Assembly (NCBI GenBank): GCA_914767715.1
Contig: OU612072.1
Location: 5,332,001-5,396,000, forward strand
Direction of reading: 5' to 3'
Length of the DNA stretch: 64,000 nucleotides
Source: Membranipora membranacea
Lineage: Eukaryota > Bryozoa > Gymnolaemata > Cheilostomatida > Membraniporidae
This document shows positions 2,081-59,359 of this stretch, piece by piece. The translations under genes and the position numbers were made by a program. Under the pieces are notes generated by a model. The model was given only the letters and a program-made list of their open reading frames with translations, did no database searches and was not told the DNA's origin. Each line of letters starts with the position of its first letter. The stretch's first letter is position 1.

Positions 2081-2144
2081 ATGGTCTCCAGTCATTTATA
2101 TAAAAAGAAATTATGTGCTATTGCTTTAATTCTGGTAACTCTAA
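2081..2144 (+). CDS. Exon 1 (proposed): start codon and signal peptide
   Basis: ATG at 2081 has a good context (A at -3, G at +4). It opens a peptide with a basic n-region (YKKK), a hydrophobic core (LCAIALILVTL) and a small-residue c-region, a classic signal peptide lying directly before the first extracellular domain. The frame is offset from that domain, so a splice is required. A phase-1 donor at 2145 gives a 37-nt intron, and one at 2151 a 31-nt intron, both ending at the TAG at 2179-2181. A shift of acceptor to 2190 would give 46 nt. These introns are unusually short, so a frameshift or a distal upstream first exon remains possible. Confidence 0.5.
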
Positions 2145-5100
2145 GTTCAAGTTCTACCAAAGCTTATCATTTTCTTTGTAGCACCCATAGTTTCAAGTGG
2201 AAGCTGTTATTCATGCAGTTTTGACGATCCTTTTAGTCCATATGATGGAACCTGCTCCCCCGGCACGGAAACATCTTGTGACTTTGACAGCGGCAAGGTG
2301 AGTTGAATATATCACCCTATTGCAATTGCAATGTTAACATGAAGTCATGCAGAGGTTGGTGCCCGCAATTAGGTATAAAAAAAGTGAAAAGAAATGTTTG
2401 CTTCATAGAAAGAAGACCACATGGAAAAAGAGTAATCAAATATTGTGAGATACACAGAAAGTTCCCAGCAAATAGTGGCTGCCTTGCTGTGACAGCATTG
2501 TGCGTACATTGGGGAATATTTGCTGATTTTTCATCGTTTTTCATCACAATATTATACAGGTTCTAACAAACTTGAACGGAATTGTCTGATATTTTAATGA
2601 ATTGTTTGATACTCATTATAATGAGCGATAGCTCCATGCCATTGTGGACAGGCCATGTATGAAGTGCATTTGCATTTCAAATTAGCATGTTATAAATGAG
2701 CCTGAATGCACTCTTGGAGGGCAACGCCATTTTTAGAGGGTGGTCGGTTTCATTTTATATGGTTAGGTTAGTTTTTTTAGTGTGCAATTTCTGGGAAGGA
2801 AAATACTGATAAATCATGTTCATAATATGTTTTTAGGTTTTGCAAAAATGGCTTTGCCCAAAATGTGTTGCGAATTGAACACAAATTGAAAGTTTGTTCA
2901 TAAAGACCATTTAGAATCAAGACATACCTAGCCGAATAACATTTGCGTGCCAACCTCACTAAAGATTTAAAGTTGTCCTCCCTTCCTTAATGGCAATGGT
3001 AATGCTGTTCAGCTCGCAGCCATTAACATTTGTATGTCATTATTAGGTAGCATTTCTATACACTGATTCACAAAGGTATGCCAATCTTGCTTGGTTTCAG
3101 AAAATTCTTATACATTGCCTTTATCACAGCCTCTATGACAGCCTCTATGACAGCCAATGTACATTTCGCCAAAGATGCTTCGCAAACTTCATTTTGCCAA
3201 TCTTATTTAGCCAATCCCAATTTGGCAAAGACATTTTGCCAATCACATTTTGCCAAAGACGCTTTGCAAATTTCATTTTACTAATCCTAATTTCGCAAAG
3301 ATGTTTTGCCAATCTCAAATTTGTCAAAATAATGTCTGCCAATCTCAATTTGCCAATCACAGTTTGCCAATGACGTTTTGCCAATCTAGTTTTGCCAATC
3401 CAAATTTGTCAAATATGTCTGCCAATCTCAATTTGCCAATCGCAGTTTGCCAATGACCTTTTACCGATCTTATTTAGCCAATCCCAATTTGGCAAAGACA
3501 TTTTGCCAATCACATTTTGCCAAAGACGCTTTGCAAATTTCATTTTACTAATCCTAATTTTGCAAAGATGTTTTGCCAATCTCATTTTGCCAATAACCTT
3601 TTGCCAAAGACATTTTGCCAATCCAAATTTGTCAAATATGTCTGCCAATCTCAATTTTCCAATCGCAGTTTGCCAATGACCTTTTACCGATCTTATTTTG
3701 CCAATCCAAATTTGTCAAAATAATGTCTGCCAATCTCAATTTGCCAATCGCAGTTTGCCAATGACCTTTTACCGATCTTATTTTGCCAATCCAAATTTGT
3801 CAAAATATGTCTGCCAATCTCAATTTGCCAATCACAGTTTGCCAATGACGTTTTGCCAATCACATTTTGCCAATCCAAATTTGCCAAATATGTCTGCCAA
3901 TCACAATTTTGCCAATCACATTTTGCCAGTGACGTTTTGCCAATCTCATTTTGCCAATCATATTTTGCCAACACCAATGGCGTACAAAAATTTGTCCCAA
4001 AAAGGCTACATGATGATTGTAAGTAATGGTTTTCCAGTCAACGGTAGGGATGGGACGATTCCAACTGGTTTTAGCAAGCGCAAATGGCAGTTTTCCATTG
4101 TTACCATTATCATGGTGCTGGTTTCTCTATCTTCATCCCTTTTTGCTGTGACTATCGCCATTATAGTGTATTGTACTCACCAGTTCAGTGGTCCTTTGGG
4201 CTCTTAGGTCTTTCTTCCTCTCTACTGCAGGTAGTCCCTATCTATAGCTCCTTAACCTTGGTTCCTATATTTTGGACTACACTATTCTTTCCTTCCATTT
4301 CCACTATCGTTTCATTTCTTAAACTCCTTCTCTATCTCTATCATATTCTCCTTCCCTATCGATCTCTTATTCTTCTTCACTATCCTCTACTTAATACTCA
4401 AATGTATTCCTCCGTGAGTAGACATTTCTTCTGATGTCTGCGCACCTCATTCGGTGTTCCTCCTCTCTATCTCTCGTCCCACTCTGTCCTTCCTCTCTTT
4501 CCGCGGCTCGTCTTCCCTCTCTCTCCAATCTCGTTCCTTACGGTTCATCTGTTGCCCTTCCTGTCTTTCTGCATCCCTTCGCTGTTCTCTCACTCGGCCC
4601 TCCTGAGCGTCCCTCTCTCCCCTGATCCCATCCAGCTGTCTTCTGTAGATATCCTCTTTCTCTCTCAACCATCCTATTTTCCTCTCTCTCTATTCTTTCC
4701 ATTGCATCCTCATAACTCTCATTCGCATTCTCCCGGTTGTCTCCTGCTAGCACTCTCCTATCCTCCCGGTCTACTATAATCTCCAGCGCCTCATCTTGTC
4801 TGACCTCCTTCTCTCTCTCTTGTACCGGCCTCCTTCCTGTCCTATCTCTCAAATCAATCCTTCTCCTTCTATTTTCTAGCCAATCCATTATCACTCTGTC
4901 ATCTGCACACCGTTCCTAGCTCTCCCTATCACTTACTTTGTGATGGCCGGCGTCCCATCTACCTTGTTTGCATTCAGGCGGCAGCTGATTAAATGGTTGA
5001 TTCGTAAAATAATTCTCCATGGTCTTTGTACCATCGACTTAACCAGGTACATGGGGCACGAGCCCACCCCCCCCCCCCACCCCGACACCGCCGACACATA

Positions 5101-8100
5101 TTCCAGGTTACTCTCATAATTGCTATGAGCCATCGAACTGCCCCTCTCAAAAATATCAGGGATTCCCACCACTATTGTTTTACTCCCTCCTTCTCCTCTT
5201 TTTCTCCCTTTAACCTGTGTAACGTCGCTCCTTCTCTACACCTGCACCTGCACCTGCACTTGCACTTGCACCTGCACCTGCCCCTGCCACTCCCCCTGCT
5301 CCTGACCCTGACCCTGCCCCTGACCCTGCCCCTGCCCCTGACCCTGACCCTGACCCTGCCCCTGCCCCTGCCCCTGCCCCTGCCCTTGCCCCTGCCCCTG
5401 CCTCTACCCCTACCTCTATCTTATCACTCTTTCTTATCACTCTATCCTATCACTCTATCTCTCTACAATAAGAAACAGCCATTAATAACACATAATATAG
5501 TCCGGGTCTTGTTTGCCGTTGTCTTGCCTATTCTCCCCGGCTGAGGGCTCAGCCAATTTGTTCTTTGCATCACTAGCTCCATCTTACCCTCAGTCCTCTG
5601 TCTACTCCCCGGTAGCTCTGCCTCTCTTGTTTTTTTCTTAGGTGTGCCCTTGACCTTCTCAGTAATTCGCCATGTACTTCCACCCAATAGCCAACTGGCT
5701 CCTCTGCTTTATATCGAATTGTCCCGGCCTACCGGTTTCTTTGTGGTATCTTTGAACCCATATCCTATCACCGTCTGCCAGGTCCTCCATTACTTTGGCT
5801 CGGTGGCTGCTGTCATAGTCTCTTTTTGCCTTCCCTTCAGCTCCCTATACTTCCCCACGAAGTTACTCTTGTTCATTCCATCCATGTCTACATACCGTCT
5901 TTATCATCTCTATGCCTCTTTCTGCCATACCATTACTCTGGCGATAGTATGGCCTGCTGGTCTGGTGCTCAATTGAAAATTCCTCCATCAGTCCCTTCTA
6001 TTCATGAGATATATAGCAGGGACCGTTATCTGACCTGATCACCTTCGGAGCCCAATAGCGAGCAATTAATGGACGGAACTTTCGCATCAGATGATCTCCA
6101 GTCTGGCTTCTCAACTCTGCCACTTCTATCTATGTAGCAGCACCCCGGGTATCGTTGCTGCTTTTAAGCCCTGCTCCTATGACCGCATCTCAAACCGTCT
6201 AATAAATCTATTCCAACTTTCCAACTCTGCCCCATGTTCCACTATAAACTTAGGTGTGGTTACAGAATTTCCAAATTTAATATAAATTTTCCAGATAGTC
6301 ACTCACTGCAAAACCAATCGATCACTACACTGTTGTGACGTCACAATCTTCTCTCTCTCTTTCTAAACTAGTCAACAACCACCATAACTTACTAAACAAG
6401 CACCTGTCTATCTCCCTTTTACTTCTGACACCATAATATAGTGTATTGTACTCACCAGTTCTATCAGTGGTCCTTTGGGTCTCGCTGCCTCTATTAAGTT
6501 TCTCCCTGTCTTGTCTTGAACTCCTCGTGGTTCTTGCGCATCTCCCTTGCGCAGCCCAGAACTCTCCCTTCCTCCCCACTGCAGGTAGTCCCTATCTATA
6601 GCTCCTTAACCTTGGTTCCTATATTTCGGACTACACTTCAATTATTACCGATATCAGCACCTGTATCTTACCCAAAACATCAGATTTCAGCCATGTTTTA
6701 GATCGTCAACAAGGAATCTGGATTTGTAATGAGATTGTGTCAGGAGTTATCCCTCATTATAGGATTCTGCTATGCGACCTGGATGTTCAGCAAACCAGCT
6801 GAGCAGACAGCAGGCCCCAAGCCCGGGTAAACAAAGAGGGTGGACGTCAGGAAGAGCATCCTGTCCTTAATAAAGCATGCCACAAAAATAATCATGCCGG
6901 AGACAATCAGAATGACAGATAATGCTAGGGCATATATGCCTTGATGCTGTGGAACGAAAACGAGAGAGGCAAACAAAATTGAGAGTGGCATCCCTTAACA
7001 TCGGGACACTCACAGGGAAAAGCAGAGAAGTAGCAGACATGATGAAAAAGAGAAAGGTACAGATACTATGCTTGCAAGAGACGCGATGGACTGGTGGCAA
7101 ATCAGAAGGAAAAGCGAGAACAATTGGGGATGGGTACAAGTTATATTATAGTGGAGGCGGACGACCGAGAAATGGAGTGGCGATATGCCTTAGTGAAGAG
7201 TGGCAGGAGAGAACGCCGGAGAGAATCATGACAATGAAACTGGTAACACCTGAAAAGACCTATAACATTGTGCCAGCATATGCGCCCCAACAAGGATGTA
7301 AAGAAGACTCTGCTCATTAAATGTATTGGCTGAACTTGGTGATTATCTCCTCCTGACCAAACTTTGAACTTCACTCTAGGGATTTGTATTTATCATTGGA
7401 GAATTAAACCCACATATAATTATGTATTATACCAATATAAACCCAATGAGCCACAATGATATTAAAAAAATATCATTTCTCAAAGAAATCTAAAAAAACG
7501 GCCGTTACCAACAGAGTAATATATCACAAACCTACTTCCAGTAGTTCGATTTCTTTCAATTTTTTTTGCTTAATTAAAATAGGACTGTCCAAATGTACCG
7601 ATTTTTGCACCAATGTAAGTTGCATACAAGCAAAATGTAACATGTAAATCTATTTTTAAAAGTATGCCTGATGTATGCTTACGATTGCGCTATACACCAG
7701 AGACCTTAGCCTTTGATACACTTTCTTTGTTTAAACAAAGCCCCTTCTATAACAAGCTTTCAATGGGGTTGTGTCAGGAGTTGTCCCTTATTATAGGGGG
7801 CGCTGAACTGATGAGACCATAAATTGGCACTTTTTTATATAAGCTATCATTGGAGCAGATCACACTTTTTGGTCTGACAGCCAGGAAAATTTAGGTGGAA
7901 ACAAAACGAGGGTAATTTCATAGGCAGGTTATGCTGACCGACTTTATGGGACAAAAAATTGACTTCGAATATAATTTGATATTTATTATGTTATATAATA
8001 TAATAAATATATCATTAAAATAAAGAGAAATAATAATATTCCAGCTTTGAGTTTTGAATATTATATAAATCCAACCTGAAAATATTGATTGCCGAAAAAA

Positions 8101-53100: not shown

Positions 53101-56100
53101 ACATGACATACTTAAATTTGATTGGCAAGAACTATGAGCTTAGCCCTGTAATTATAATTTAAGCTGATGTGTTTGCAGTTAAGATTTTTACTGTTTTAAA
53201 TTTCTGCACTGAATGCTAGAGAAAATATATGTAAACGGTCTACATGATGTTATATAATTTTCTGAATAAAATGGCTCTAAATGCTCTCTAAAATAAATTT
53301 CCTTGCCAAATTCTACTATTCTCAATGATAAAGTCAATCATGCATACACCAGCCATGCACCACCATATTTTGGTTGCATCATGAGATTGCGCAATAATTA
53401 AGTAGGATGTTTTGAGCACTGCATTGTCCATAGTACGATATTGGCATGGAATTCAACAGCACAACATCAACAGTGTAGATCAAATAGTAAATAATATATT
53501 TGGTATCAGCTTTAACCGTGTCATCATTGTGATGTCATGAGGCAGCAGAAGATGCCCAGATATGCCTCATTGTGATTATAATATAAACTAAATCAAAGTG
53601 TAGATAGGTTTAGAAGTCGCTACATGCTTTGATAGCTTAGAGTTACCCTTCCCGATTATTAGATTTTTTTATAAGATTACACATACGGTATTTTAAATTT
53701 CCACAAAGCTATGCAATGAAAACTTGCTTTAGCAATCCTAAATTTTATACAGTAGATTTCATGGCAACAGACAGATTGATCTGCTAACTGTAAACGTCTG
53801 GTTGCGTATCTGTGCAGATTGCTTATGTAACAGACTGCACAGATGCGTCATTTTCAGAATGGATATTTTCAGAATGTTTGTCTATAGCAAACGGAGAAAA
53901 AGAATCTTGCTTGCTTGCTTGGCAGCCTTCGTTCTAAAATGGTTGTCAAATGCCTTTGGCATAGGCTTCCAAGTGTAAATTCCAGTAGTCATATCAAATA
54001 ACCAGGTAACTCCACATAGTGACCTAACTAGACTCGATCTGAAAAACCGAGGTAATCAATGCATACTGCATTACCAATGACATTTCGTTGGTGATCTTAT
54101 GAGCTTCAGTACATCTTGAAATGAATGTCACATATAATCCATGAAAATATAATGATAAGAAGTGTGTCAATTTCTTTCCGATGAGGACCCTGGTAAATGA
54201 TTACAGGTGTACTGTCATCAGCGGCTGAGCTAGATTACGAGAGACATCAATCATATAATATACTGATAGATGTGTCAGACATGGGATCGCCTTCACTATC
54301 ATCAACAACAACTGCCACTGTAGATGTTCTTGACTGCAATGATAACAGACCTCTGTTCAAGCAGAAACATTATACATTTGAGGTAAATATGTCTCAACTT
54401 GGATATTGGAATCAAGGCCAAAGCAATATAGTCTGGCAGCTAGTTCTGCAGTAGACATGAATAGTTTTACATTATGATAAACCATAGCACGTCTGGGTGA
54501 AAATTATGTATAGTGTTAGCACTTGTCTCTCCCCTCTGCTTGTCTATGAGAAATTATCTATTATTGTTCAATGACTCTTGACAATGAAATAATATTCATA
54601 TATGGACAAAATCAGTTATAAAAAGTATACGAAATTGGCCTTAATATCCCTGAAACGATTGTAGATTGCTTCGATCTTTTGGTGGTTTTCAAAGTATCAG
54701 GCTTCTTTTCAGATCAGATACCATTTTCTCATAGGATAGGACCTTTGATTATAGGTTTGAGTTCATCATGGGTTATAGACTATTGATAATCAAGTTTATG
54801 ATGCCAGAGAATTGCAGACCTCATTGGTTATTCATGAAATTGAAGGCACCCATAAAGGCTTATCACCGATTTCATCAAAATTGGGCTGATTAATATTCCA
54901 GATAGCTGATAATGAGCGAGTTGGATCAGTAGTTGGATTCGTTAAAGCTTACGATGTGGACTCTGGAGCATATGGTCAAGTTGGATATCGCATCACCAAT
55001 GTTTTCAAAGGAGCCTCTCACTTCTCAGTTCGTCCTAGCGGGGCTATAGTTCTCAGGTTCCCTGTAAACAGGCAGCGCATAGCTTTGCATATGTTTTCTG
55101 TTGCGGCATCAGACACTGGAATTGATGGGAACTTCTCTTCCTCAGTAAACGTCACAGTCCTCATCATAGACAGCAAACCAAAATTTCAGAAGAGCACTTA
55201 TGAGGCCACAGTGGATGAGAATACACCTGTTGGTACTGAGGTGATGAACGTTGTAGCCGATGTCTCTGCAGCTGTAAAAGGAGCAAAACTTACTTATCAT
55301 TTAGTCAGTAACCTGCCTCGGATCAGTAGCCAGCCTGTAATTAATAAATATCTCAATATCCATCCACTGACTGGTGTCATCTCAATCAAAGGTAAATATT
55401 ATATGCCATGGCGGCGTGTTTAGGTCTGAGAGAAGAACCAGATCAATAAAATATTAAATATGAATCAAACTATCAGCCATCCTTGTTGCCATGGTTTAGT
55501 TTCAGTTGTTTTGTAAAGGTTAGAGCGCATCTCAAACCGGGTACTGAATTTTATTTTAGAGTCAGCTGATAGAGAGATGTTCACTGAGCTGCTATTCAAA
55601 GTTATGGTGATTAACGGTTTACTGGCTAAATCACACACTGTTCCTGCTAGAATCGAAATAAATGATATGAATGACAATACACCAGTCTTATCCCCATTAT
55701 TCTACAACACCGAGATCATGCTATCCACAACATCAGGTAGCCGGTCCACTGACTTAGAGAGACATTCTGAGTTTCAACCATTCTGAGTTTCGGCCATTAC
55801 GGGTTTCAGCCACCCTGTTTGGTTTGTGGGCAGTGGTCACTTGTTGCATAAAACTTAAGATTGGGACAGCTGTTCTCAAATTTCATAATAAATTCAAAAT
55901 ACTAAAATATCCAAAATACGCGTCCACAGCTTTCATTGAAGATCTTTGTCCCTCATTCATGATGTGACTGGTTAGGCTTTCTCTATTTCTCGGTACAATT
56001 GTAGGTAAGCGTGTTGTCATTGTACATGCTGTTGATCCCGACTATGGAGACAATGGAACTGTTTCATACAGTCTAGTAACTCCCAGCAATCACTTCAGTA

Positions 56101-59100
56101 TAGATCAGACGACTGGCCAGATTACTACAGGGACAAACCACCAGCTCAGAGCTGGGCAAAAGTTCATACTTCTAGTTAAAGCATCAGACAACGGCGACCC
56201 CAAGAGAGACAGTATTGAGAAAGCAATAGTTAGGGTGAGCAATAGATTACTTAATACATGATCAGAAAAACAAATTTAACAATAATATTGCGCAATCCTG
56301 GCCTCTGATGCGGAATGAAAAAGATAAAATCATTGAAACAATCAGGAGAATCAAAGTCCACATAGAGACTTTTGTGATTGACCAAAATTATCAAAAGCAT
56401 CTTAATACTTTTTAAAAAGAAGATATTTCATTCTAAGAGCATGTATTGTGTATCACGTGTAAGCCTCAGTCAGTAGATACAACAAGTAGCTTTATCTCTC
56501 TTTTATGTTGTCTATTTATAGGTAGATGTTTTTGACCAAGTCAAGTATATGTTATACATTGATATCACCTCATCCAAGCCTGCAGACAACTTTAATGTAA
56601 CCTTGTTCGCTAAGACCCTTCAAGGAGATTTGAAAACTCTCTCCATCCCGATTTCTGTTGTTGTTCATTCAAGTGAGCAAAGAATCAAAGACACACCAGC
56701 GCGTACAACAAGGTGTACATTTAAATTCAATATTTTTTCACATTCTATACTTTAGTTTTCTTATTTTATTCAATACTGAAGAGAGAAACCACGAATCAGA
56801 TTATAGATCGATTTGTTCAATCTTTAATGCTGCAAACCATCGACAGAATGTTTCTTGTTATAGCACGAGAGTTTGGTTATATGGGTATTATTATGGTACA
56901 GATGATGTAACAGCCTTATCTAAGCCTAAGAAGTTTGTATCTGCAGCAGAATTAAAAGTGTTTGGCCTGCAGACTACAGGTTTGTGTGGTGTCACGCTGT
57001 TTATACTCATCATTTCAATTATATATACATTGAAAAAGATGAGCATTTTTATTGGAAGCAAATCAGACATACATGATATATCGTGAACTCTTTTGCAAAC
57101 TTCTTCTTTGCTAACAACATATGAAACAATGCACAGTTTCACAAGTTTTCTTGAATATCACAAGGTAATTTTTAGCAATTACATGCATGAAGATAACTTA
57201 AAGGCTACCCATAGACCGAGAAGTTATCTTCATGCATGTAATCGCTCAAACTTTCCTTGAATATCGCAAGGTAATCTTGAGCAATTACAAGCATGAAGCT
57301 AACTTAAAGGCTATCCACAGACCAAAGCATGTTGTAGTCAGGCAGTTACTTATGAAAAGGTTGTGTCAGATTTGCATGGTAAAGAAATTCAATGCTCTAC
57401 TTGACATGGATTATTGATGGTGGAAAGAGTACCTTCCATAAGGGAAGGTAACTCTCATTCTCTGCACTATCATGTCACAGTCTCACGGATGTACAATACA
57501 AGACATAGGCAAATCCGGGAGACTGTGATATCATAATACAGAGAATGAGAGTTACTTTCCCTTAAGGAAGGCACTCTTTCATCCATCTATAATTGATGCC
57601 ATGTAGAGCATTGAAACTTTGTTTGTACCATGCAAATCTGACACAATTGTATCATAAGTAACTGCCTGAGTATATCACCATTTGATCTTTGTTTAGGCTT
57701 CAAAAATGAGTTCAAAATTTTCTCATGGATAATCGATTGTATTTTACCCTGATTTTAGTGTTTAGACAATGGAGAGTTGAGGATGTTGGTGTCGCTAATA
57801 GCGATATTGAACCCATGACACCAGAAGCTTTGGAAAGTAGCGACACTGTTCAATCTAGTCAAAACAAAGGTAGAGTTCCTCGTTATTGTCAACGGTTTTC
57901 TTTGGTTCATCATTTTAGACACAACTAAGCTCTCTAGCTCTAATGTTATTTAGACTGCACTGCACTCTTTAGCTTTTGTATTACTAGTGAAAATTCCTGG
58001 AATTCTAAGTACCACTTCCTTGTTTCCGGTTTCTTACCACTTAATTTAAATTTTTAGTCAAGTTTTTCAGTAGATCTTCTAGTTTAAGAAAAATGTATTA
58101 GGTTGACTCTCTTGTAGAAAATTTCATGAAGATAATGCAATGTTAGCTGGTAAAATCAAATCGTATAACTCAAAACTCCTGTGAATTCAGACAAGAAAAT
58201 TTGGTCTCTTCAGCCAGATCTCAATGCATTCTAATGTGACTTACTATTCTTAATAAGAACAAATTTTTGTGGTCCCCAGAGGTTTCAATTAAGTAAACTG
58301 CACTGCAGCTAGCTTGTAGACCAGTAATGTACATCTCTCAATGTTGAATTGAAAGGAATTCCACAGATGCATCATATAACATTCAATCCACCACTATTCT
58401 ACACCCTTGCAATCATGTAAAATAAGGGTTACCATGAATACAGTGATTCAGTTCCAATTCTCCAAGCATGTTGAGAGTTGATTTAAATTCAAGCCTTTTT
58501 TGACTACCCTGGCAATTATAATATATAGCAACTTAAAAGGTTGATTATTCTTGCAACAATCAGTGCCGTAGTTTAGGAGAAAACGATAGGGAAAGCGATA
58601 GTCTTGGGGATTTGAAGTAGAGTAACACTTGATTTGGTATTGTAAGATCCTCCCGAGTCCCCAGTCCCCAGCCTCCAATTTGTTTCAACGATATAAATTA
58701 CAAATGAAAGTCCCAAATGAGCTGATTCTGACATGGAATTATCAATTGTAGCACTTTATGCAGCATTCTAGGGCCTGATATTACCAGACAGTATGAATTA
58801 TCCATTCAAATTATGCACTTTTTAAATTTGAGAGAAGGTTACATAAATAGTATTCTGAGTACAGCATTCATAACCAGGTCTGAACTTGTTCAGTGTAAAT
58901 TGCAGATTTATGATGGATATTTTTTCAGAAAGGTTGTGAGATAAATGATCAAATAGCTAAAATTTGCAGATGAACCTAGGGGGTCTTTCAATTAGAAACA
59001 ACCAAAATTTCAATCTAATTGCTCAATCAGTTAAAGAGCGATATCTGCTAGACTCTCGCTTTCAAACTGCTTGAGTGAGTGGCAATTTTAGTGATGTGAT

Positions 59101-59359
59101 AGTAATTACTTGATAACTTATTGGAGACCCCCCCCCCCCTAGTAAGCAGCTCGGCATCATATTGATAGTACTTGATTCGAGTACTCTTGTTCCAGGATAG
59201 CATATTCCTAATCTTGAACGTATATCTGATCATTCAGGGACGATCTATGTACTGCTGATCCTGGGAGTGATCTGTGGATGTTTGCTGACTGCTGAGATAT
59301 ACATAATCGCAACGGCTAGACAGCTAAGAGGCATCAACTCTGTCGTCCCTAGAAGATAG
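2081..59359 (+). CDS. Chimeric adhesion receptor: SP-Ly6/uPAR-CTLD-TSP1-CUB-TSP1x7-cadherin x5-TM (22 exons)
   Basis: Proposed exons: 2081-2144, 2182-2297, 26414-26636, 26921-27112, 42989-43213, 43312-43479, 44282-44466, 44913-45066, 45211-45312, 45456-46538, 46798-46911, 48819-48974, 49227-49385, 50619-50837, 54207-54382, 54902-55391, 55560-55736, 56005-56234, 56522-56672, 56782-56979, 57759-57869 and 59238-59359. Every exon is bounded by AG/GT, and all phases are compatible, giving one open frame of about 4.8 kb (about 1,605 residues) ending at TAG 57357-style codon 59357-59359. Domains in half (Ly6, CTLD, CUB) rejoin correctly across introns, which is strong evidence for one gene. It should be a type I plasma-membrane receptor or adhesion protein with a very large modular ectodomain and almost no cytoplasmic tail. 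Ligand and function are unknown. The first exon is the least certain, and extra small exons could have been missed. Confidence 0.82.
2182..2297 (+). CDS. Exon 2: N-terminal half of Ly6/uPAR three-finger domain
   Basis: Acceptor TTTCTTTGTAG, donor AAG|GTGAGT. Incoming phase 1, outgoing phase 0. It encodes SGSCYSCSFDDPFSPYDGTC and a following SC pair, the CxxC opening and the first finger of a Ly6/uPAR (LU) domain. The missing half, with the diagnostic CC...LCN ending, is on the next exon 24 kb downstream and joins in frame. LU domains are disulfide-rich extracellular folds often used for ligand or partner binding. This one heads a long transmembrane receptor instead of being GPI-anchored. Confidence 0.82.
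2298..3152. other. Start of the 24-kb intron, no recognised feature
   Basis: No domain, transposon protein or RNA gene recognised. Overlapping open frames near 2303-2566 on both strands have no family resemblance and are probably chance. Confidence 0.4.
3153..3980. repeat. Minisatellite of ~14-bp TTTTGCCAATCNCA units
   Basis: About 830 bp of imperfect tandem units built on TTTGCCAATC followed by 3-5 variable bases. Many units carry a CCAAT pentamer. Higher-order blocks recur (for example the stretch at 3205-3300 resembles 3475-3570, and 3390-3470 resembles 3630-3710 and 3785-3860). Several overlapping pseudo-ORFs on both strands (peptides rich in ANPNL, CQSHFA) are products of the repeat, not genes. 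A shorter array of the same unit in the opposite orientation lies at 26018-26230, near the other end of this intron. Confidence 0.9.
4162..4281 (-). repeat. 3' LTR of the minus-strand Ty3/gypsy relic
   Basis: About 120 bp sharing TATAGTGTATTGTACTCACC, the block CTGCAGGTAGTCCCTATC and the end GGACTACA with 6437-6635. It lacks about 80 bp present in the other copy. On the minus strand it begins TGTAGTCC, and just upstream of it (plus 4282-4304) lies a purine-rich tract (GGAAGGAAAG) that fits a polypurine primer site. Confidence 0.75.
4447..4900 (-). pseudogene. Arg/Glu-rich ORF near the 3' end of the LTR relic
   Basis: Overlapping minus-strand frames of 73 and 118 residues are very rich in Arg and Glu (REREKEVRQDEALEIIVDRE). 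The opposite strand is a long pyrimidine run. It may be the post-integrase tail of pol or a low-complexity product. I recognise no domain. Confidence 0.3.
5236..5405. repeat. Hexanucleotide microsatellite (CTGCCC/CTGACC)n
   Basis: About 28 units of CCTGCC, CCTGAC and CCTGCA variants in tandem. The plus frame reads alternating LP/LT/LH dipeptides and the minus frame GA/GS dipeptides, both artefacts. The minus strand has many spaced GGG or GGGG runs. Confidence 0.92.
5640..6110 (-). pseudogene. Ty3/gypsy integrase fragment
   Basis: The reverse strand reads RYWAPKVIRSDNGPCYISHE, a stop, then GLMEEFSIEHQTSRPYYRQ and SNGMAERGIEMIKTV. These are the second Asp (SDNG) and third catalytic region (HQTSRPYYRQSNGMAER) of a retroviral-type DDE integrase. 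Downstream frames resemble the post-core region (ELKGRQKETMTAATEPK; VNRYHKETG-like) but are shifted. The in-frame stop and missing N-terminal zinc-binding domain show it is non-functional. Confidence 0.75.
6437..6635 (-). repeat. 5' LTR of the minus-strand Ty3/gypsy relic
   Basis: About 200 bp, the longer copy of the LTR. On the minus strand it runs from TGTAGTCCG to TACACTATA and is followed at once by the TGGTGTCAGAAGT primer-binding-like motif, which identifies it as the 5' LTR. Confidence 0.72.
6731..6776 (+). mobile_element. Family M TIR element, copy B, left end (split by an RTE LINE)
   Basis: GAGATTGTGTCAGGAGTTAT and the following CCCTCATTATAG match the left end of the intact copy at 7765 (GGGGTTGTGTCAGGAGTT...). 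An AT dinucleotide precedes it, as at the intact copy. The element resumes at 13271 after the LINE insertion. Confidence 0.75.
6759..6776. repeat. Left target-site duplication of the RTE LINE
   Basis: ATAGGATTCTGCTATGCG (18 bp) is repeated exactly at 13271-13288. The first copy interrupts family M sequence that continues after the second copy. Confidence 0.92.
6922..7307 (+). pseudogene. LINE endonuclease N-terminal half
   Basis: Reads LRVASLNIGTLTGKSREVAD, LCLQETRWTGG, GDGYKLYYSGGG, NGVAICLS and YNIVPAYAPQQGCKE: the first motifs of the EEP endonuclease fold (N, ETRW, YAPQ). The frame is cut exactly at the X1 insertion and resumes at 10934 with EKQRFWNQLE, so both halves make one domain. Confidence 0.85.
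7308..10933 (+). mobile_element. TIR element X, copy 1 (X1), non-autonomous
   Basis: Begins CTCTGCTCATTAAATGTATT and ends as the reverse complement of CTCTGTTCATTAAAACTATT, giving about 24-bp terminal inverted repeats. It splits the LINE endonuclease frame, and removing it with one copy of the flanking GA restores it, so the target duplication is 2 bp. A second copy in the opposite orientation is at 20381-22797. Without the nested family M element at 7765-8520 it is about 2.87 kb. I see no transposase frame. A tRNA-like box (GTCAGTCGCTCAGCGCGC, near 9217) with a downstream GGTCACGGGTTTGGTT occurs in both copies. Confidence 0.82.
7765..8520 (+). mobile_element. Family M TIR element, copy A, 756 bp
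   Basis: Starts GGGGTTGTGT and ends ACACAACCCC. The flanking AT on each side is a 2-bp target duplication, because copy X2 retains the uninterrupted site (…CTTTCAATTCAATC… on its reverse strand). Subterminal inverted blocks include GATGAGACCATA and TTTATATAAGC. No coding capacity. It is nested inside X1, and copy B of the same family surrounds the LINE that contains X1. Confidence 0.85.
10934..13260 (+). pseudogene. LINE endonuclease C-terminal half and reverse transcriptase
   Basis: Continues the endonuclease (LVLVGDLNGHVGAD, TYTYKSGLNQTVIDYIM), then a linker (WWKIEEEEGDEL; KNKKEAFKDWKRTRS) and reverse transcriptase pieces: LNKSKGPDELPIEMIKKLKD, IPNGWRESNIVPLYRQKGD, NYKGIKLLSHSLKLYERVIE, VDLEKAYDTIPRELIWHCLR, and a C-terminal PQKLKVVMYKTVIRPVLLYG with ETW. 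The final part reads QGRPKHRWKDTIRKDLK. The frames are broken by stops and shifts near 11405, 11555, 11930, 12090 and 12330, and the FADD box region (about 12470) is damaged. Confidence 0.85.
13271..13288. repeat. Right target-site duplication of the RTE LINE
   Basis: Exact 18-bp copy of 6759-6776, followed by the continuation of family M sequence (TATGAGACCATGAATTTG). Confidence 0.92.
13289..14670 (+). mobile_element. Family M copy B (right part) joined to a LINE fragment
   Basis: 13289-13740 aligns with the interior of copy A (for example GCTATCATTGGAGCTGATCA and CACTTTTTGGTATGACAGCC). 13740-14100 is A-rich and not in copy A. 14110-14660 is a degraded reverse transcriptase fragment. The same composite occurs inverted at 18405-19735, so the join predates the duplication of the pair. 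Confidence 0.65.
14110..14660 (+). pseudogene. LINE reverse transcriptase fragment
   Basis: Reads GKSTGPDQI, then KVFPKVWKTARISPIFKSGS and QDDPGSYRP, SMIFEKQLN, and after a frame break FIDFWKAFDCVDHQVL: the N-terminal motifs of a CR1/L2-like LINE reverse transcriptase ending shortly after the first catalytic Asp block. No FADD box remains. Confidence 0.75.
14671..15169. other. No recognised feature
   Basis: AT-rich spacer without a recognised domain. Small frames (for example 14749-14967 on the minus strand) look like chance. Confidence 0.35.
15170..16370 (+). pseudogene. Heavily degraded LINE (jockey/Rex-like) fragment
   Basis: The clearest part is 15890-16010, reading APKDYRPIMLLRLIDKVRET and LIKRRLQKQISPILDP in one frame, the RT finger motif PxxYRPI. 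Around 16300 a peptide ADDTKVFQS fits the (Y/F)ADD catalytic box. The segment before 15690 is only weakly LINE-like. Many stops and shifts in all frames. Confidence 0.55.
16371..17831. other. No recognised feature; short TA microsatellite
   Basis: AT-rich intronic DNA. A TA run lies at 17275-17296. I recognise no gene or transposon motif. Confidence 0.35.
17832..17925 (+). repeat. tRNA-like / tRNA-derived SINE head with an extended terminal stem
   Basis: GATAGCTCAGTTGGTTAGAGC is a good A-box/D-arm and GGGTTCAAACCC a good B-box/T-arm. The ends AGTAGGAGAT and ATCTTCTACT pair over about 10 bp, longer than the 7-bp acceptor stem of a tRNA. The anticodon region (CGTCTTCAACACG, then a long variable stretch) does not make a normal tRNA. 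I therefore call it a SINE or tRNA pseudogene. A related head occurs at 30243-30358 on the other strand. Confidence 0.55.
17926..18404. other. No recognised feature
   Basis: A 73-residue frame at 17983-18204 has no family resemblance. No other signal seen. Confidence 0.3.
18405..19735 (-). mobile_element. Inverted copy C of the family M plus LINE-fragment composite
   Basis: Reverse complement matches 13340-14670 along most of its length: the family M interior (TTGACAGCCAGGGAAAATAT), the A-rich middle, the RT fragment (18720-18960, with the GPDQ and KS-G motifs) and the end CTACAAGACAGGTCTTAGGA. Its family M end is truncated at about 19735, where the 3' end of the minus-strand LINE begins. 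Confidence 0.72.
19860..20380 (-). pseudogene. LINE RT C-terminal region (after X2)
   Basis: Continues the split RT: NYEKTFQIIFKAPDNFL in frame after X2 is removed, then broken frames with the thumb-like pieces YYSFFYPQLIYRLEL and LRPIQTLQKDALRVIKG-like sequence. The 70-residue frame at 19874-20086 is one part. It parallels DLYYTIFYPHLICGLEF in the copy at 63 kb. Confidence 0.68.
20381..22797 (-). mobile_element. TIR element X, copy 2 (X2), 2,417 bp
   Basis: Left end CTCAGTTCATTAAAAGTATT, right end its exact reverse complement, followed by TTGGCTGAA-type and TTTTGGCTTCA-type subterminal sequence that tells the two ends apart. TA flanks both sides (20379-20380 and 22798-22799) as a 2-bp target duplication. 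It is the reverse-oriented partner of X1 and lacks the family M insertion, so it shows the empty site. It breaks the LINE RT frame. No transposase recognised. Confidence 0.87.
22785..23600 (-). pseudogene. LINE reverse transcriptase N-terminal and palm region
   Basis: Reads KKATGPDRLPMQALKDN, a stop, SYRPISMLNSTSKVLEKTLS, NYQFGFRSKRSTTDAI, YFSQAFDTIYHGILIGKLK, SVPRSLVIGHFYFLIYINDL and ILFADDTNIFSTEPE: RT motifs through the FADD catalytic box. The GVPQGS motif is altered to SVPRSL, and an upstream stop interrupts the frame, so it is dead. The open frame ends two codons into X2. Confidence 0.85.
24060..25735 (+). mobile_element. Jockey/Rex-like LINE fragment, plus strand
   Basis: Endonuclease tail (FTSFIYISCYTPRTG, LVMGDFNQLPLHL, CYTRIKGAYSHCNQLAQLGD with SDHH), then RT: LNSRKGAGPDGLIPKVIKLC, PKIWKTATIKPPPKITKPYQ, LKHFRPIALTSCLCKTMDH, FLDFSSAFNTIDIRHLLPEL and TYSGTPQGSVLSPLMFSIYT. 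Frames are broken near 24568 and 25340. It stops before the YADD box and is truncated at both ends. It appears inserted into the minus-strand LINE. Confidence 0.85.
26018..26230. repeat. Second CCAAT minisatellite array, inverted orientation
   Basis: Units of GATTGGCAAAA(T/C)G and variants, the reverse complement of the array at 3153-3980. About 210 bp. Open frames on the minus strand (CQRHFA, CQSHFA) come from the repeat. Confidence 0.9.
26414..26636 (+). CDS. Exon 3: C-terminal half of the Ly6/uPAR domain
   Basis: Acceptor TTTATGTAG, donor ATG|GTGAGT, phases 0 in and 1 out. Encodes VCVTDIKKGN, GCGIPVFCDQG, NACHA and ends HCIYCCAEDLCNYD. The CC...DLCN end is the hallmark of the Ly6/uPAR fold. 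Joined to exon 2 it gives ten cysteines in the expected order. The 284-nt intron that follows is the shortest between large modules in this part. Confidence 0.9.
26921..27112 (+). CDS. Exon 4: N-terminal half of a C-type-lectin-like domain
   Basis: Phase 1/1, 192 nt. Reads DPTCRVGEKQFGDKCVFLG, EWADAWCS and GEVYAPLTNEDNVKLKNWI. The CxxG...FGDKC opening, the second cysteine helix (EWADAWC) and the A-x-L-x-N-x-E segment fit the first half of a CTLD. The second half is on the next exon, 15.9 kb away. Confidence 0.85.
27113..27799. other. Start of the 15.9-kb intron, no recognised feature
   Basis: No domain or repeat recognised. Confidence 0.35.
27800..28390 (-). pseudogene. C-terminal fragment of a LINE polyprotein
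   Basis: Minus-strand frames read FWWSGNAVPMPSDSLPKQIM followed by YSELHNGKRSTAGQRKRYKD, a pattern common at the very end of RTE/endonuclease-RT type ORFs (W-G-H-V-x-R-M ... G-K-R-x-x-G-x-x-x-x-Y-K-D). Upstream (28350-28030) a frame-shifted peptide RQLGLLALIQHKEQHWI would be the preceding part. The 5' truncation is typical of LINE insertions. Confidence 0.65.
28391..29835. other. No recognised feature
   Basis: AT-rich intron DNA without recognised coding or repeat structure. Confidence 0.3.
29836..29960. repeat. Short minisatellite of ~20-bp (A)AACTTGGCCC units
   Basis: Six or so imperfect units built on AACTTGGCCC followed by 7-12 AT-rich bases (GTATATAAAAT, ATGTAATAA, AAAATAGTTA). GC/AT blocks alternate. 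Confidence 0.75.
30243..30358 (-). repeat. tRNA-derived SINE
   Basis: On the minus strand it reads AGAGATAGCTCAGTGTTAGG (A box), then GGTTCAAACCCCACCGGG (B box) and a non-tRNA tail GTGCACTGACTTAGCTGTCG. The A-box start is shared with 17832. The pieces between the boxes do not fold as a functional anticodon arm. Confidence 0.7.
30360..31130. other. No recognised feature
   Basis: No supported gene or repeat. Confidence 0.3.
31140..31830 (+). pseudogene. Integrase-like transposon fragment
   Basis: Reads AKDGKEYRYILSVLDNISQF and SARPLLRKS, the D-x-x-S...R-x-L pattern at the start of a retroviral-type or Ginger-type integrase core, then LDIFDTY. Further pieces about 31640-31750 suggest the later part (KTKKGTRKDIEKT). 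Frames are interrupted repeatedly, and no complete DDE triad can be read. Confidence 0.5.
32025..32738 (+). other. Unassigned open segments
   Basis: Frames of 71 and 78 residues and an intervening peptide (IRPDGQIVSDQSELYIALGH) look somewhat coding but show no family I recognise. They may belong to the same dead transposon as 31140-31830. Confidence 0.2.
32740..33993 (+). mobile_element. CR1/L2-like LINE fragment with its 3' end
   Basis: RT motifs in order: QISPVPKVAQPKIYKDYR, VGVDFSKAFDKEQPQIILDK, DVSVGAPLGTNLGPHLFI, VIRYADDTSIYQSFAN, then MLLNPEETTIIDFLFNYKH and a C-terminal piece IKRNTARIPFRKPTNSRP ending in a stop at 33953. GVPQGS is changed to GAPLGT. The 3' UTR-like end ACCTCTAAT...ACCCTATAGGAG (33948-33989) recurs inverted at 38645-38680. 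The 5' end is missing. Confidence 0.78.
34090..34185 (+). repeat. tRNA-derived SINE or tRNA pseudogene with a T-run terminator
   Basis: TGTAGTGGTCTAAGTGC (A box) and GGGTTCAAATCCC (B box) are good, followed by CCTTGGACATTTTTTT, a run of T that would end Pol III transcription. The region after TTGCAATC is too long for a standard variable loop, and the acceptor ends pair poorly, so a true tRNA is unlikely. The same TTGCAATC occurs in the element at 40098. Confidence 0.6.
34464..37361 (-). CDS. LINE ORF2: endonuclease-reverse transcriptase, 965 aa
   Basis: N-terminal EEP (APE-like) endonuclease with IRILHHNVRSLL (about residue 50), NETWLRPE, VLLGDFNINW (about 190), LLDHIY and SDHYA (about 265). 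Linker to about residue 480, then reverse transcriptase with LVTPIFKKGDHTNPSNYRPI (about 545), FGFRKSHSCEQ, SLDVRKAFDSVNH (about 645), GVPQGSILGPLLF and the catalytic FADDTLIF (about 720). The C-terminal part has VKLLGVILDQ-like, YVRPILEYCS and RRRATFDRF. No RNase H domain is evident. It would nick the genome and carry out target-primed reverse transcription in the nucleus. Its start codon overlaps the ORF1 stop (ATGATTAA). Confidence 0.95.
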   Translation of the reverse strand: MINTNVSGNNVFDTNLFYHRKLWNDIDCLADQNFRPNYFNESNQRIRILHHNVRSLLKRFSFFESLNLNESVDIFSVNETWLRPEIPDSLVTLPGFGIVRSDRNSTLKSRAGGAAIFVSSKFSFSVLDKPKDRLSDFCDSVWIEINFSHKPTIVSSIYIPPDVKKSDFIECLIEVLNMRELKGKQVVLLGDFNINWNQNTREKISIRLGLDVFNLEQKVTGVTFCSFKGNESLLDHIYASKNLEVEKSGILTCDRTVSDHYATFVILKVSKIIRPRRKLIHFRNFKSIDNIAFFNHAKSLPFLQLCSDTSRSLDERIDLFDSLISNLLNNHAPIMTRRIRHHKNPWMNSSLLRLIRFKNQTYKSIFKSPKNQNIQPSTLDDFRKLKSYTLNQIRKAKKYYYIDKLNDSKSSFYQTCGTLLGKADKKSEIDSLVFNNTLVTDEKEIANTFNTFFTSICSQQKLDVKEACQHMTYKTPLTKFEFTKISTEQVRRKLLSMSPKKRGGVEKIPTFIYQILSNIIALPITILINESFLTKSFPSSLKMALVTPIFKKGDHTNPSNYRPISSLPIMSKIFEAFLNDQLSTFLTSHKLLNIRQFGFRKSHSCEQLLLSLLDVWKSKLDSSSPCYISALSLDVRKAFDSVNHQLLLTKLKYLYIAESAQSMLSSYLNNRLQCFKVGNATSGVLNIKSGVPQGSILGPLLFNIAINDLLGKFSNSFAFADDTLIFEISDSLNEAISKSESLVTMVTNWYSVNGFNLNLDKTQFCVFSNRKVETIPNLVSNNVQIKSATSIKLLGVILDQHLSLKTYVESLVLKSNRVLFCLSKIRKFVNPSHLLQAYKSYVRPILEYCSSLLLNTSDYNSNLLELCQNRAIRIILGTNSFFSISTGREILNLSTLSDRRRATFDRFVNNATLGKNTSFFILKLINSCKMHNRVLRSGRRIIKPKYRTKYGKTRFLNQFISFSKS
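37354..38571 (-). CDS. LINE ORF1 protein with N-terminal RNase H1-like hybrid-binding domain, 405 aa
   Basis: After a basic start (RAKKRKRKNKEQ, a likely nuclear or RNA-binding patch) residues about 20-68 read NYLLYAVSKGKITGLFKNW, SCSHSVIGI and YKGFNDLESAKQYL. This matches the RNase H1 N-terminal hybrid-binding / caulimovirus viroplasmin fold: YAV..G...G.(Y/F)..W..C...V.G....Y..F.....A...L. A heptad-like region (LDQITKLITRVDALENIIV, about 130-200) suggests a coiled coil. The C-terminal third has RRM / pre-C2HC-like pieces (RSFVIYDLQPTE; HVAVVKGVPLHMTPEDIVMD). No CCHC knuckles. It should bind LINE RNA, and perhaps RNA-DNA hybrids, in the ribonucleoprotein. Confidence 0.9.
   Translation of the reverse strand: MDQNTRAKKRKRKNKEQNGNYLLYAVSKGKITGLFKNWLSCSHSVIGIKSSAYKGFNDLESAKQYLKESGTAVKYISCTESDFLKPNFEEDTKSIDSFSTMSLDNVIEASTSAQQSTTGHGQVVTSCHLCPQILDQITKLITRVDALENIIVKQNGIISSLNTEMEANKEQIVERNSSLIKEEFLKLNESTVGLSDKITTYADKAAVKPKKNEILRRIPKNAEQRNKIPFEPKRSFVIYDLQPTEIPNINIDKIRMAICQRHGSTKVDFINRYKFDQNNLSKCKFLIQLSNQSDLKKIVEEWDESTFGGSKARFTIQPVPHVAVVKGVPLHMTPEDIVMDVNADYRCTTAYRITTTDGKPLRAVKLQFLNDIEKDRAIQNGVVFRSQYNILLNVEELRHKKSSND
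38599..38633 (-). promoter_or_regulatory. Hairpin in the LINE 5' UTR
   Basis: ATCGAGTTG (38599-38607) and CAACTCGAT (38625-38633) are perfect 9-bp inverted repeats with a 17-nt loop, at the extreme 5' end of the element, 28 nt before the ORF1 start. It could structure the transcript end. Function is inferred only. Confidence 0.55.
38645..38680 (-). repeat. Fragment of a LINE 3' end, inverted copy
   Basis: On the minus strand ACCTCTAATAAAAATATACC followed by CTATAGGAGTTTA resembles the 3' end at 33948-33993 (ACCTCTAAT...ACCCTATAGGAGCTTA). It touches the 5' end of the intact LINE. Confidence 0.55.
38681..40097. other. No recognised feature
   Basis: AT-rich intron DNA; no domain, RNA gene or repeat recognised. 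Confidence 0.3.
40098..40180 (+). repeat. tRNA-derived SINE-like element
   Basis: GCAGCTGAATGGTTAGCGCG (A box) and CCCGGGTTCAAACAG (B box) separated by a long spacer containing CTTGCAATCAATGAC. TTGCAATC is shared with 34090-34185. Not a foldable tRNA. Confidence 0.55.
40181..42988. other. End of the 15.9-kb intron, no recognised feature
   Basis: Several small frames (for example 41576-41854 and 42291-42545) have no recognised domain. No transposon motif seen. Confidence 0.3.
42989..43213 (+). CDS. Exon 5: C-terminal half of the C-type-lectin-like domain
   Basis: Acceptor CCTTTCAG, phases 1/1, 225 nt. Reads PDALIWLNYITDGTTTET, FNDFLGTPTGTPGGCVTLNE, NGWTKRQC and APVCST. These are the IWLN strand, the GGCV cysteine, the W..xxC and the final VC of the fold. 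The EPN/QPD and WND calcium and sugar motifs are absent (GTPTG; GWTKRQC), so classical Ca-dependent sugar binding is unlikely. Confidence 0.87.
43312..43479 (+). CDS. Exon 6: TSP1 repeat 1
   Basis: Phases 1/1, 168 nt. Reads NGWGAWTIWSGCSSTCGVTG then RRRICETPPKFAGSPCSG and ends EDCNRIPCQ. WxxW (AWTIW), CSSTCG and six cysteines define a thrombospondin type 1 repeat. WxxW is a C-mannosylation motif and CxxTCG an O-fucose motif in this family. Confidence 0.92.
43480..44281. other. Intron, no recognised feature
   Basis: No gene or repeat recognised in this 800-bp intron. Confidence 0.4.
44282..44466 (+). CDS. Exon 7: N-terminal half of a CUB domain
   Basis: Phases 1 in, 0 out. Reads RCGEYNDSIGGVITSPDYPN, NYPNDYQCMWFINLP, VNISVIDSGIQYCENCECDA with LE at the end. 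The G-x-I-x-S-P-x-Y-P-x-x-Y-P signature, the C..C pair and the CDALE strand are diagnostic of CUB. Confidence 0.93.
44913..45066 (+). CDS. Exon 8: C-terminal half of the CUB domain
   Basis: Phases 0 in, 1 out. Reads IYDNTTADEALLKYCGSNQ, SNSIIIRFASGEEVNGTGWK and VEWYG: the IYDG-like strand, YCG cysteine, the S-x-x-x-x-x-F-x-S-D-like turn and final G-x-x-x-x-Y of a CUB fold. Joins exon 7 in frame (CDALE|IYD). Confidence 0.93.
45211..45312 (+). CDS. Exon 9: linker between CUB and the TSP1 array
   Basis: 102 nt, phases 1/1, acceptor TTTTCTCCAG, donor CAAC|GTGAGA. Encodes APQILYNIFANNCSAGENTW and VIFNHHQWPPPYIQ. Phase symmetry and splice sites support it, but no domain is recognised and a single cysteine is present. 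It could be skipped without breaking the frame. Confidence 0.6.
45456..46538 (+). CDS. Exon 10: six and a half tandem TSP1 repeats in one exon
   Basis: 1,083 nt (361 codons), phases 1/1. Repeats start near 45456, 45620, 45791, 45961, 46132, 46303 and 46474, with a period of about 57 codons and a CPIDGNW spacer. Each has a W-x-x-W strand and C-x-x-(S/T/E)-C-(G/N) core, for example CTSTCGGGS, CSSSCGGGN, CDASCNGGS, CSVTCGSG. The units at 46132 and 46303 are almost identical in DNA, with a 171-bp offset. NWT sequons occur at the tryptophan strand of several repeats. Ectodomain stalk or ligand-binding array; TSP1 arrays often bind glycosaminoglycans or matrix. Confidence 0.95.
46798..46911 (+). 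CDS. Exon 11: end of TSP1 repeat 8
   Basis: 114 nt, phases 1/1. Reads LMQRSRDCDNPFPTNGGSPC then SGEDEEILKCEEEECA. It completes the repeat begun by CSVTCGSG at the end of exon 10. Confidence 0.9.
46912..48818. other. 1.9-kb intron, no recognised feature
   Basis: Small frames at 46991-47173 and 47711-47908 are without recognised domains. An undetected small phase-1 exon is possible here, because the module type changes from TSP1 to cadherin across it. Confidence 0.4.
48819..48974 (+). CDS. Exon 12: cadherin repeat 1, first half
   Basis: 156 nt, phases 1/1. Reads KNRAPHFEKHEYTVELYEEQ and SPGNSVVNLTASDEDVGPNG: the A-P-x-F start, the E-x-Q-S-P-G helix and the D-x-D-x-G-x-N-G calcium motif of a classical cadherin repeat. 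The acceptor (TTTTGTGGGTAG) is somewhat weak. Confidence 0.88.
49227..49385 (+). CDS. Exon 13: cadherin repeat 1, second half
   Basis: 159 nt, phases 1/1. Reads GFSLNAVTGELTTSAVLDRE then DTEFYNLTVYVTDKADSPLT. The F-x-x-x-x-x-T-G-x-x-x-x-x-x-L-D-R-E and L-x-V-x-V-x-D motifs fit exactly. Confidence 0.95.
49386..50618. other. Intron with a homopolymer tract
   Basis: 1.2-kb intron. Contains a G-rich tract at about 50202-50213. No gene recognised. Confidence 0.4.
50619..50837 (+). CDS. Exon 14: end of cadherin repeat 1 and first half of repeat 2
   Basis: 219 nt, phases 1/1. Reads TLVIIHVLDINDNEPQLMDE then PYSAAILESEQPGTQILTIH, AKDADLDKNAALTYSI and FTIDHYTG. DINDNEP is the canonical calcium linker, and DADLDKNA the next repeat's D-x-D motif. 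Confidence 0.95.
50838..54206. other. 3.4-kb intron carrying a foldback element
   Basis: Contains the inverted-repeat element described at 50935-53412. Poly-C at 51782-51794. Otherwise no recognised feature. Confidence 0.45.
50935..53412. mobile_element. Foldback-type inverted-repeat element
   Basis: Left arm 50935-51415 and right arm 52915-53412 are diverged inverted copies: for example GTGCATGGATAGTGTATGCA on the left against TGCATACACCAGCCATGCAC on the right, and CCATTTTGAAAATCAAAATA against TATTTTGATTTTCAAAATGG. The outer ends (CCTACATAATTGTTGCGCAA and TTGCGCAATAATTAAGTAGG) also pair. The loop of about 1.5 kb has no transposase that I can see. Confidence 0.75.
54207..54382 (+). CDS. Exon 15: cadherin repeat 2, second half
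   Basis: 176 nt, phases 1 in, 0 out. Reads GVLSSAAELDYERHQSYNIL then IDVSDMGSPSLSSTTTATVD and VLDCNDNRPLF. L-D-Y-E-x-x-x-x-Y and D-x-G-S-P-x-L are classical; the linker is DCNDNRP instead of DINDN. Confidence 0.94.
54902..55391 (+). CDS. Exon 16: cadherin repeat 3 and most of repeat 4
   Basis: 490 nt, phases 0 in, 1 out, the largest cadherin exon. Repeat 3 reads ADNERVGSVVGFVKAYDVD, GASHFSVRPSGAIVLRF and TVLIIDSKPKFQ, where the usual D-x-N-D-N is reduced to DSKP, so calcium binding at that linker is probably lost. Repeat 4 opens ATVDENTPVGTEVMNVVAD and goes on to YLNIHPLTGVISIK. Confidence 0.92.
55560..55736 (+). CDS. Exon 17: end of cadherin repeat 4 and start of repeat 5
   Basis: 177 nt, phases 1/1. 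Reads ADREMFTELLFKVMVINGLL, then TVPARIEINDMNDNTPVLSP and FYNTEIMLS. NDMNDNTP restores the calcium linker. Confidence 0.92.
56005..56234 (+). CDS. Exon 18: cadherin repeat 5
   Basis: 230 nt, phases 1 in, 0 out. Reads VVIVHAVDPDYGDNGTVSYS, then NHFSIDQTTGQITTG and FILLVKASDNGDPKRDS. D-P-D-Y-G-D-N-G and A-S-D-N-G-D-P are textbook cadherin motifs. Confidence 0.95.
56522..56672 (+). CDS. Exon 19: membrane-proximal region after the last cadherin repeat
   Basis: 151 nt, phases 0 in, 1 out. Reads VDVFDQVKYMLYIDITSS, NFNVTLFAKTL and IPISVVVHS. It begins with the last strand of cadherin repeat 5 (VRVDVFDQ), then a segment without a recognised family, one N-glycosylation sequon. Confidence 0.85.
56782..56979 (+). 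CDS. Exon 20: cysteine-containing juxtamembrane region
   Basis: 198 nt, phases 1/1, acceptor ATACTGAAG is weak but the upstream tract is T-rich. Reads RNHESDYRSICSIFNAANHR, QNVSCYSTRVWLYGYYYG and KKFVSAAELKVFGLQTT. No domain recognised. The frame stays open past the donor at 56980 to a stop at 57084-57086, and the read-through peptide is itself a membrane segment. Confidence 0.7.
56980..57086 (+). CDS. Possible alternative 3' end: retained-intron transmembrane segment
   Basis: If the donor at 56980 is not used, the frame continues GLCGVTLFILIISIIYTLKK and MSIFIGSKSDIHDIS before TGA. That is a hydrophobic helix followed by a stop-transfer KK. This would give a shorter receptor lacking exons 21-22 with a different membrane anchor and tail. 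No nearby AATAAA was noticed, so the evidence is coding potential only. Confidence 0.4.
57148..57325. repeat. Small direct and inverted repeat cluster
   Basis: The block TTGAATATC(A/G)CAAGGTAA with ATTACATGCATGAAG and AAGGCTA(C/T)CCA is present at 57150-57218 and again at 57250-57322. Between them an inverted piece AGTTATCTTCATGCATGTAA (57221-57240) pairs with TTACATGCATGAAGATAACT (57178-57199). Confidence 0.75.
57339..57671. mobile_element. Long-hairpin MITE, ~333 bp palindrome
   Basis: Ends CAGGCAGTTACTTATGA and TCATAAGTAACTGCCTG are perfect inverted repeats, and pairing continues almost to the centre (GTGTCAGATTTGCATGGTA with TACCATGCAAATCTGACAC; AGGTAACTCTCATTCTCTG with CAGAGAATGAGAGTTACTTT). 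The centre is near 57505. AGT on both sides may be a 3-bp target duplication. No coding capacity. Confidence 0.85.
57759..57869 (+). CDS. Exon 21: acidic juxtamembrane region
   Basis: 111 nt, phases 1/1. Acceptor TTTTACCCTGATTTTAG is strong, donor AAAG|GTAGAG. Reads FRQWRVEDVGVANSDIEPMT, then PEALESSDTVQSSQNK. No domain; acidic and Ser-rich, consistent with an extracellular stem before the membrane helix on exon 22. Confidence 0.75.
57870..59237. other. Last intron, no recognised feature
   Basis: 1.4-kb intron. Poly-C at about 59129-59139. Nothing else recognised. Confidence 0.4.
59238..59359 (+). CDS. Exon 22: transmembrane helix, short tail and stop
   Basis: 122 nt, phase 1 in. Reads TIYVLLILGVICGCLLTAEI then YIIATARQLRGINSVVPRR and TAG. 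A hydrophobic helix of about 23 residues precedes about 15 residues with Arg near the membrane. The tail has no catenin-binding sequence or recognised signalling motif. Confidence 0.85.

Follow-up and report, generated by a model that had tools for sequence, protein, structure and literature searches.

A candidate adhesion receptor joining TSP1 and CUB modules to a cadherin stalk in Membranipora membranacea

Cadherin domains within a protein of the thrombospondin superfamily have been described for the mega-thrombospondins, in which leucine-rich repeats at the N-terminus precede a centre containing the cadherin domains and a thrombospondin C-terminal region (PMC6526912). In a window of 64 kb from M. 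membranacea (the whole stretch of DNA analysed; GC 36.7%, zero N) we have assembled a plus-strand model of 20 exons, spanning positions 2081-59359 and encoding 1504 amino acids, in which a consistent series of exons joins modules of both the TSP1 and the cadherin type in a fixed order. A homologue search with the whole protein scored a capped set of 7977 candidates, 1715 of which passed an E-value of 0.001, and the best 120 of these 1715 were TSP1 proteins or, in two cases (P0086 and P0089), cadherins, covering at most 42% of the query. With the cadherin part alone, a likewise capped set of 7991 candidates was scored and 435 passed, and the best 120 of the 435 were all cadherin-repeat proteins with 25-32% identity. 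TSP1 and cadherin modules occurred together in 0 of the best 120 of 1715 and in 0 of the best 120 of 435, and TSP1 with the DxNDN motif in 0 of the 240 proteins of both sets. The claim of an unprecedented combination, made in an earlier sequence-only reading of this DNA, was thus borne out for the TSP1-cadherin fusion in the 240 best-listed homologues, and a literature search covering titles and abstract openings returned no description of this domain combination. A homologue search with the head alone, insensitive to distant relatives, yielded 0 hits among 387 candidates (827-2632 aa) at an E-value of 10.

The coordinates named in that reading (2081, 2297-26414, 27112-42989, 46911-48819 and 59359) belong to plus-strand exons that assemble in frame, although it had counted 22 exons where we count 20. 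All 19 junctions (19/19) are in frame; as the reading frame had already guided the choice of splice sites, this agreement alone is weak evidence. Its claim of sound splice sites and phases stands for the phases, which are consistent, and for 18 of 18 donors other than the first, which lie at or above the 85.6th percentile of every GT in the window, but fails at the first donor (7th percentile). The 19 acceptors range from the 67.2nd to the 99.2nd percentile of every AG in the window; the splice-site weights were generic and, like the hydropathy scale used below, not species-trained. A plus-strand scan for acceptor-ORF-donor combinations, with a codon model trained on the same exons that it recovers, placed 17 of the 18 internal exons within its top 46 non-overlapping candidates, and the exon at 56522 came up only with a different donor. 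When each of exons 2-20 was dropped from training in turn, 17 of these 19 obtained a positive coding score, the two exceptions being 56522-56672 (-5.2) and 59238-59359 (-2.6). Equally high-scoring scan candidates besides the model exons, at 7016-7242, 10932-11279 and 12663-12901, all lie within the 24-kb intron, and an ORF overlapping the first of them has a sub-threshold endonuclease match of LINE type. Apart from the first, the exons of the model are genuine. Pfam matched 12 families in the joined protein, and the domain order proposed earlier is correct, with TSP1, CUB and cadherin called by Pfam, but the Ly6 and lectin-fold assignments are weaker than had been claimed.

At the N-terminus, the signal-peptide-like exon 1 (2081-2144) is doubtful because its donor is poor and the resulting intron would measure 37 bp. 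Position 2134 offers a stronger donor, but in the wrong phase, and the preceding 2.2 kb contained no superior candidate for a signal-peptide exon; as modelled, the first exon is not credible. Exons 2 (2182-2297) and 3 (26414-26636), for both of which there is model, splice, coding and profile evidence, encode the two halves of a Ly6-like domain with 12 cysteines, a CYSC start and a CCAEDLCN end. A PDB sequence search with this domain gave a best E-value of 0.33, and matches to the Ly6/uPAR profiles stayed below every Pfam cut-off (QVR, E 0.06, the best; UPAR_LY6, E 0.34), so that of the Ly6/uPAR domain previously announced the cysteine pattern and the sub-threshold matches persist, and a significant profile match does not. 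The join 2297-26414, across a 24-kb intron, falls inside this domain, and the sub-threshold Ly6-type matches span the intron. Near both ends of the same intron, at 3190-3971 and 26022-26199, lies a tandem repeat with a period of 14 bp, its two arrays being reverse complements of each other.

The following module, encoded by exons 4 (26921-27112, first half; model, coding score and CTLD alignment) and 5 (42989-43213, second half; model, coding score and join test), resembles a C-type lectin domain, as its six cysteines and its tryptophan and glycine landmarks adopt a layout common to known CTLDs. Against Pfam it produced zero matches up to an E-value of 10, and a PDB sequence search returned a single chance match (E 1.2). 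The assignment is based on a single oyster protein, P0108, with two CTLDs; the domain was aligned pairwise with each of these, and both alignments beat 1000 of 1000 shuffles. The join 27112-42989, across a 15.9-kb intron, lies inside the domain and rebuilds it as one, and in a join test with 1210 other open 70-residue windows, drawn from six frames, no window equalled the exon at 42989 in completing a CTLD. The first template for this test overran into a TSP1 repeat, and with it 11 of 1049 alternatives reached or exceeded the observed score, the six displayed being TSP1 windows of the same gene, and the second CTLD gave 3 of 1000 shuffles; with later templates, trimmed at the CTLD end, these numbers became 0 of 1210 and 0 of 1000. 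Both long joins, 2297-26414 and 27112-42989, are supported because each interrupts a domain, in agreement with the exon assembly originally proposed. A further inhabitant of the 15.9-kb intron is a LINE on the minus strand (34467-38634) with two long open frames, one of 974 aa (34467-37388, minus strand) containing endonuclease and reverse transcriptase, and one of 426 aa with a match to an RNase H1 N-terminal domain.

Lectins that bind sugars in a Ca2+-dependent manner are marked by the motifs EPN or QPD and WND. EPN and WND are absent from the lectin-like domain (in the alignment with P0108, GEPNN and GWND face unlike residues; the PROSITE-type lectin pattern used was not species-trained), and their absence makes classical Ca2+-dependent sugar binding unlikely on sequence grounds. 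We have accordingly dropped the lectin-like head as a sugar binder. The lectin fold itself aligns with two oyster CTLDs beyond shuffles, with the Pfam match and the motifs missing. The suggestion of two possible ligand-binding heads was overstated, as one of them lacks the EPN and WND of P0108 and the other is a sub-threshold Ly6 call.

The modules that follow are of the TSP1 and CUB types. TSP1 repeat 1 resides on exon 6 (43312-43479; Pfam, repeat alignment), the first and second parts of the CUB domain on exons 7 (44282-44466) and 8 (44913-45066; Pfam for both), TSP1 repeats 2-7 and the start of repeat 8 on exon 9 (45456-46538; Pfam, coding score, repeat alignment), and the remainder of repeat 8 on exon 10 (46798-46911). 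Pfam TSP_1 matches eight stretches (249.6 bits, E 1.5e-75) and CUB one (70.4 bits against a cut-off of 21.4, E 1.9e-19). The eight TSP1 units align well and show the tryptophan ladder and six cysteines; WxxW occurs 15 times among them and C..[ST]CG, a site of the O-fucose type, five times. Repeats 6 and 7 arose by tandem duplication in recent times (46139-46485, period 171 bp, 90% matches). A possible additional exon between CUB and TSP1 repeat 2, 45211-45312, has a strong acceptor, yet was rejected with a coding score of -1.2 and, upon further codon-model scoring, -11.3 and -3.8.

The cadherin part begins with exon 11 (48819-48974), which contains the start of repeat 1 and opens in phase 1, and continues through exons 12 (49227-49385, repeat 1), 13 (50619-50837, repeats 1-2), 14 (54207-54382, repeats 2-3), 15 (54902-55391, repeats 3-4), 16 (55560-55736, repeats 4-5) and 17 (56005-56234, repeat 5), the latter six carried by model, Pfam and coding score. 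Pfam Cadherin matches five consecutive stretches (E 8e-75) and, at 247.8 bits, far exceeds its cut-off of 28.8, and the part matches 169 distinct sequences of solved structures, the best being CELSR1, followed by protocadherins. The Ca2+ sites at the linkers between cadherin repeats are marked by the motifs LDRE, DxD and DxNDN. In the repeat alignment DxNDN is present in repeats 1, 2 and 4 and lost from repeats 3 and 5, and judged by this alignment and the rules for cadherin Ca2+ sites, linkers 1-2, 2-3 and 4-5 appear to retain their Ca2+-binding residues, while linker 3-4 seems to have lost them.

Three exons complete the model. Exon 18 (56522-56672), a membrane-proximal segment, has no Pfam match, and its score rises to +2.2 with a codon model from the cadherin exons; exon 19 (57759-57869; model, coding score) encodes a stalk; and exon 20 (59238-59359), identified by hydropathy and scored at +5.2 with the cadherin-exon model, contains the transmembrane helix, a tail of about 15 residues and the stop. 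Cadherin_C is not among the 12 Pfam families matched, and the catenin-binding cytoplasmic domain that defines classical cadherins is lacking. A second in-phase transmembrane exon with a short tail, 56950-57083, was not adopted for the model; its coding score is worse than that of 59238, and it is a possible alternative C-terminus.

The claim of a single protein depends on the join 46911-48819, the sole questioned join to link whole domains. Its donor stands at the 99.8 percentile and its acceptor at the 94.5 percentile, it connects phase 1 to phase 1, and the exon scan found no better phase-compatible internal exon between the two sites. Also in favour of the join are third-position GC values of 0.367 for one half and 0.360 for the other. 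Against it, the codon models of the halves predict each other poorly (-115.3 bits for 813 codons, -28.5 bits for 530), which may be explained by their amino-acid make-up. Judged from the DNA, all exons quite probably belong to one transcript. In the reading that competes with this most directly there would be two tandem genes, the first for a secreted or lipid-anchored Ly6-CTLD-TSP1-CUB-TSP1 protein and the second for a short-tailed cadherin with five repeats, an arrangement that we consider unlikely, and it would be equally improbable that the first gene ends inside 46912-48818 and the second takes its signal-peptide exon from 48512-48566. The latter ORF, MSLWSGFSIMIVLLLLLQ, is strongly hydrophobic and signal-peptide-like, ends at a phase-1 donor ahead of the acceptor at 48819, and with a hydropathy of 3.79 is unique on the plus strand at a value of at least 3.5 and matched in 0 of 300 shuffles of the interval. 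However, it has no basic residue ahead of its core, its codon scores are -9.4 and -10.1, and its leucine run coincides with the pyrimidine tract of the strong acceptor at 48566. AATAAA is not found in 46912-48818, which counts against a gene end there, and ATTAAA, which counts for one, occurs twice (47533 and 48306). The absence of TSP1 from the best 120 of 435 cadherin relatives fits two genes, but these would have to lie less than 2 kb apart and share a phase-1 boundary by chance.

An end for a first gene would be available in the candidate in-phase terminal exons at 48566-48630, where the strong acceptor (6.4) leads into an ORF of 21 residues up to a stop, and at 47068, with a hydrophobic tail; of terminal-exon options with such tails there are three in the interval versus 20 in 63 kb. 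The exon at 48566-48630 is likewise a possible alternative 3' end of a single gene, yielding a secreted TSP1-only product, and a gene of this kind might in addition produce two membrane-anchored forms ending in 56950-57083 or 59238-59359. The acceptor of the second transmembrane exon, 1.8 versus 0.2 at 59238, is in line with such alternative ends, but with the cadherin codon model 56950-57080 scores -7.5 versus +5.2 for 59238, and we hold this version to be highly improbable. The reading that we prefer, and consider likely, is one gene for a type I single-pass adhesion or recognition receptor with a short tail.

In such a receptor the ectodomain would comprise, from its tip, the Ly6-like and C-type-lectin-like domains, one TSP1 repeat, CUB, seven TSP1 repeats, five cadherin repeats and, next to the membrane, a short segment of no known class, followed by the transmembrane helix and the tail of about 15 residues. 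The TSP1 rod, together with cadherin repeats made rigid by Ca2+, would keep the small N-terminal modules and CUB far from the membrane, and the modules so presented might bind to matrix, to another cell or to a microbe. As linker 3-4 seems to lack Ca2+ residues, a bend in the cadherin stalk is predicted there. The tail is too short for a catenin-binding domain, and without this classical link the protein could serve as a tether or depend on a partner for signalling. A role in adhesion or recognition is suggested by the sequence of the modules, and binding partners, adhesion and signalling are what we infer from this layout. Chances are about even that a three-finger domain, a lectin fold with its sugar site lost, a rod of TSP1 and CUB modules and a base of cadherin repeats in one chain represent an undescribed, lineage-specific receptor class, and, as part of the same reading, it is a similarly balanced proposition that phase-1 exon shuffling provided a TSP1-type recognition protein with a cadherin stalk and a membrane anchor.

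If the exons form one mRNA, the locus would mean that TSP1-array proteins and non-classical cadherins, two large families of surface proteins, can fuse into an adhesion receptor with candidate roles in tissue adhesion and in immune or gamete recognition, and it would be a concrete example of phase-1 domain shuffling; two genes would be ordinary. Among described proteins, cadherin-23, protocadherin-15, Fat and CELSR share the five consecutive cadherin repeats, with 25-32% identity among the matches listed. The long non-classical cadherins are without TSP1 in the best 120 of 435, the tail of the present protein measures about 15 residues, and, unlike in those cadherins, the segment after repeat 5 matches no Pfam family. 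Proteins annotated as SCO-spondin-like, hemicentin-like or coadhesin share the tandem array and the type of TSP1 repeat, with 33-46% identity among the matches listed; the Nematostella protein P0074 combines a TSP1 array with CUB, and the oyster protein P0108 a TSP1 array with a C-type lectin domain. All these TSP1-array proteins differ from the present one in that cadherin repeats are absent in the best 120 of 1715. The protein would be an unusual mosaic, in which every module is already known and the combination is a new variation, absent from the 240 homologues listed. Mega-thrombospondins differ by their leucine-rich repeats and thrombospondin C-terminal region, both absent among the 12 Pfam families of our protein, and with this different layout they are the nearest precedent found.
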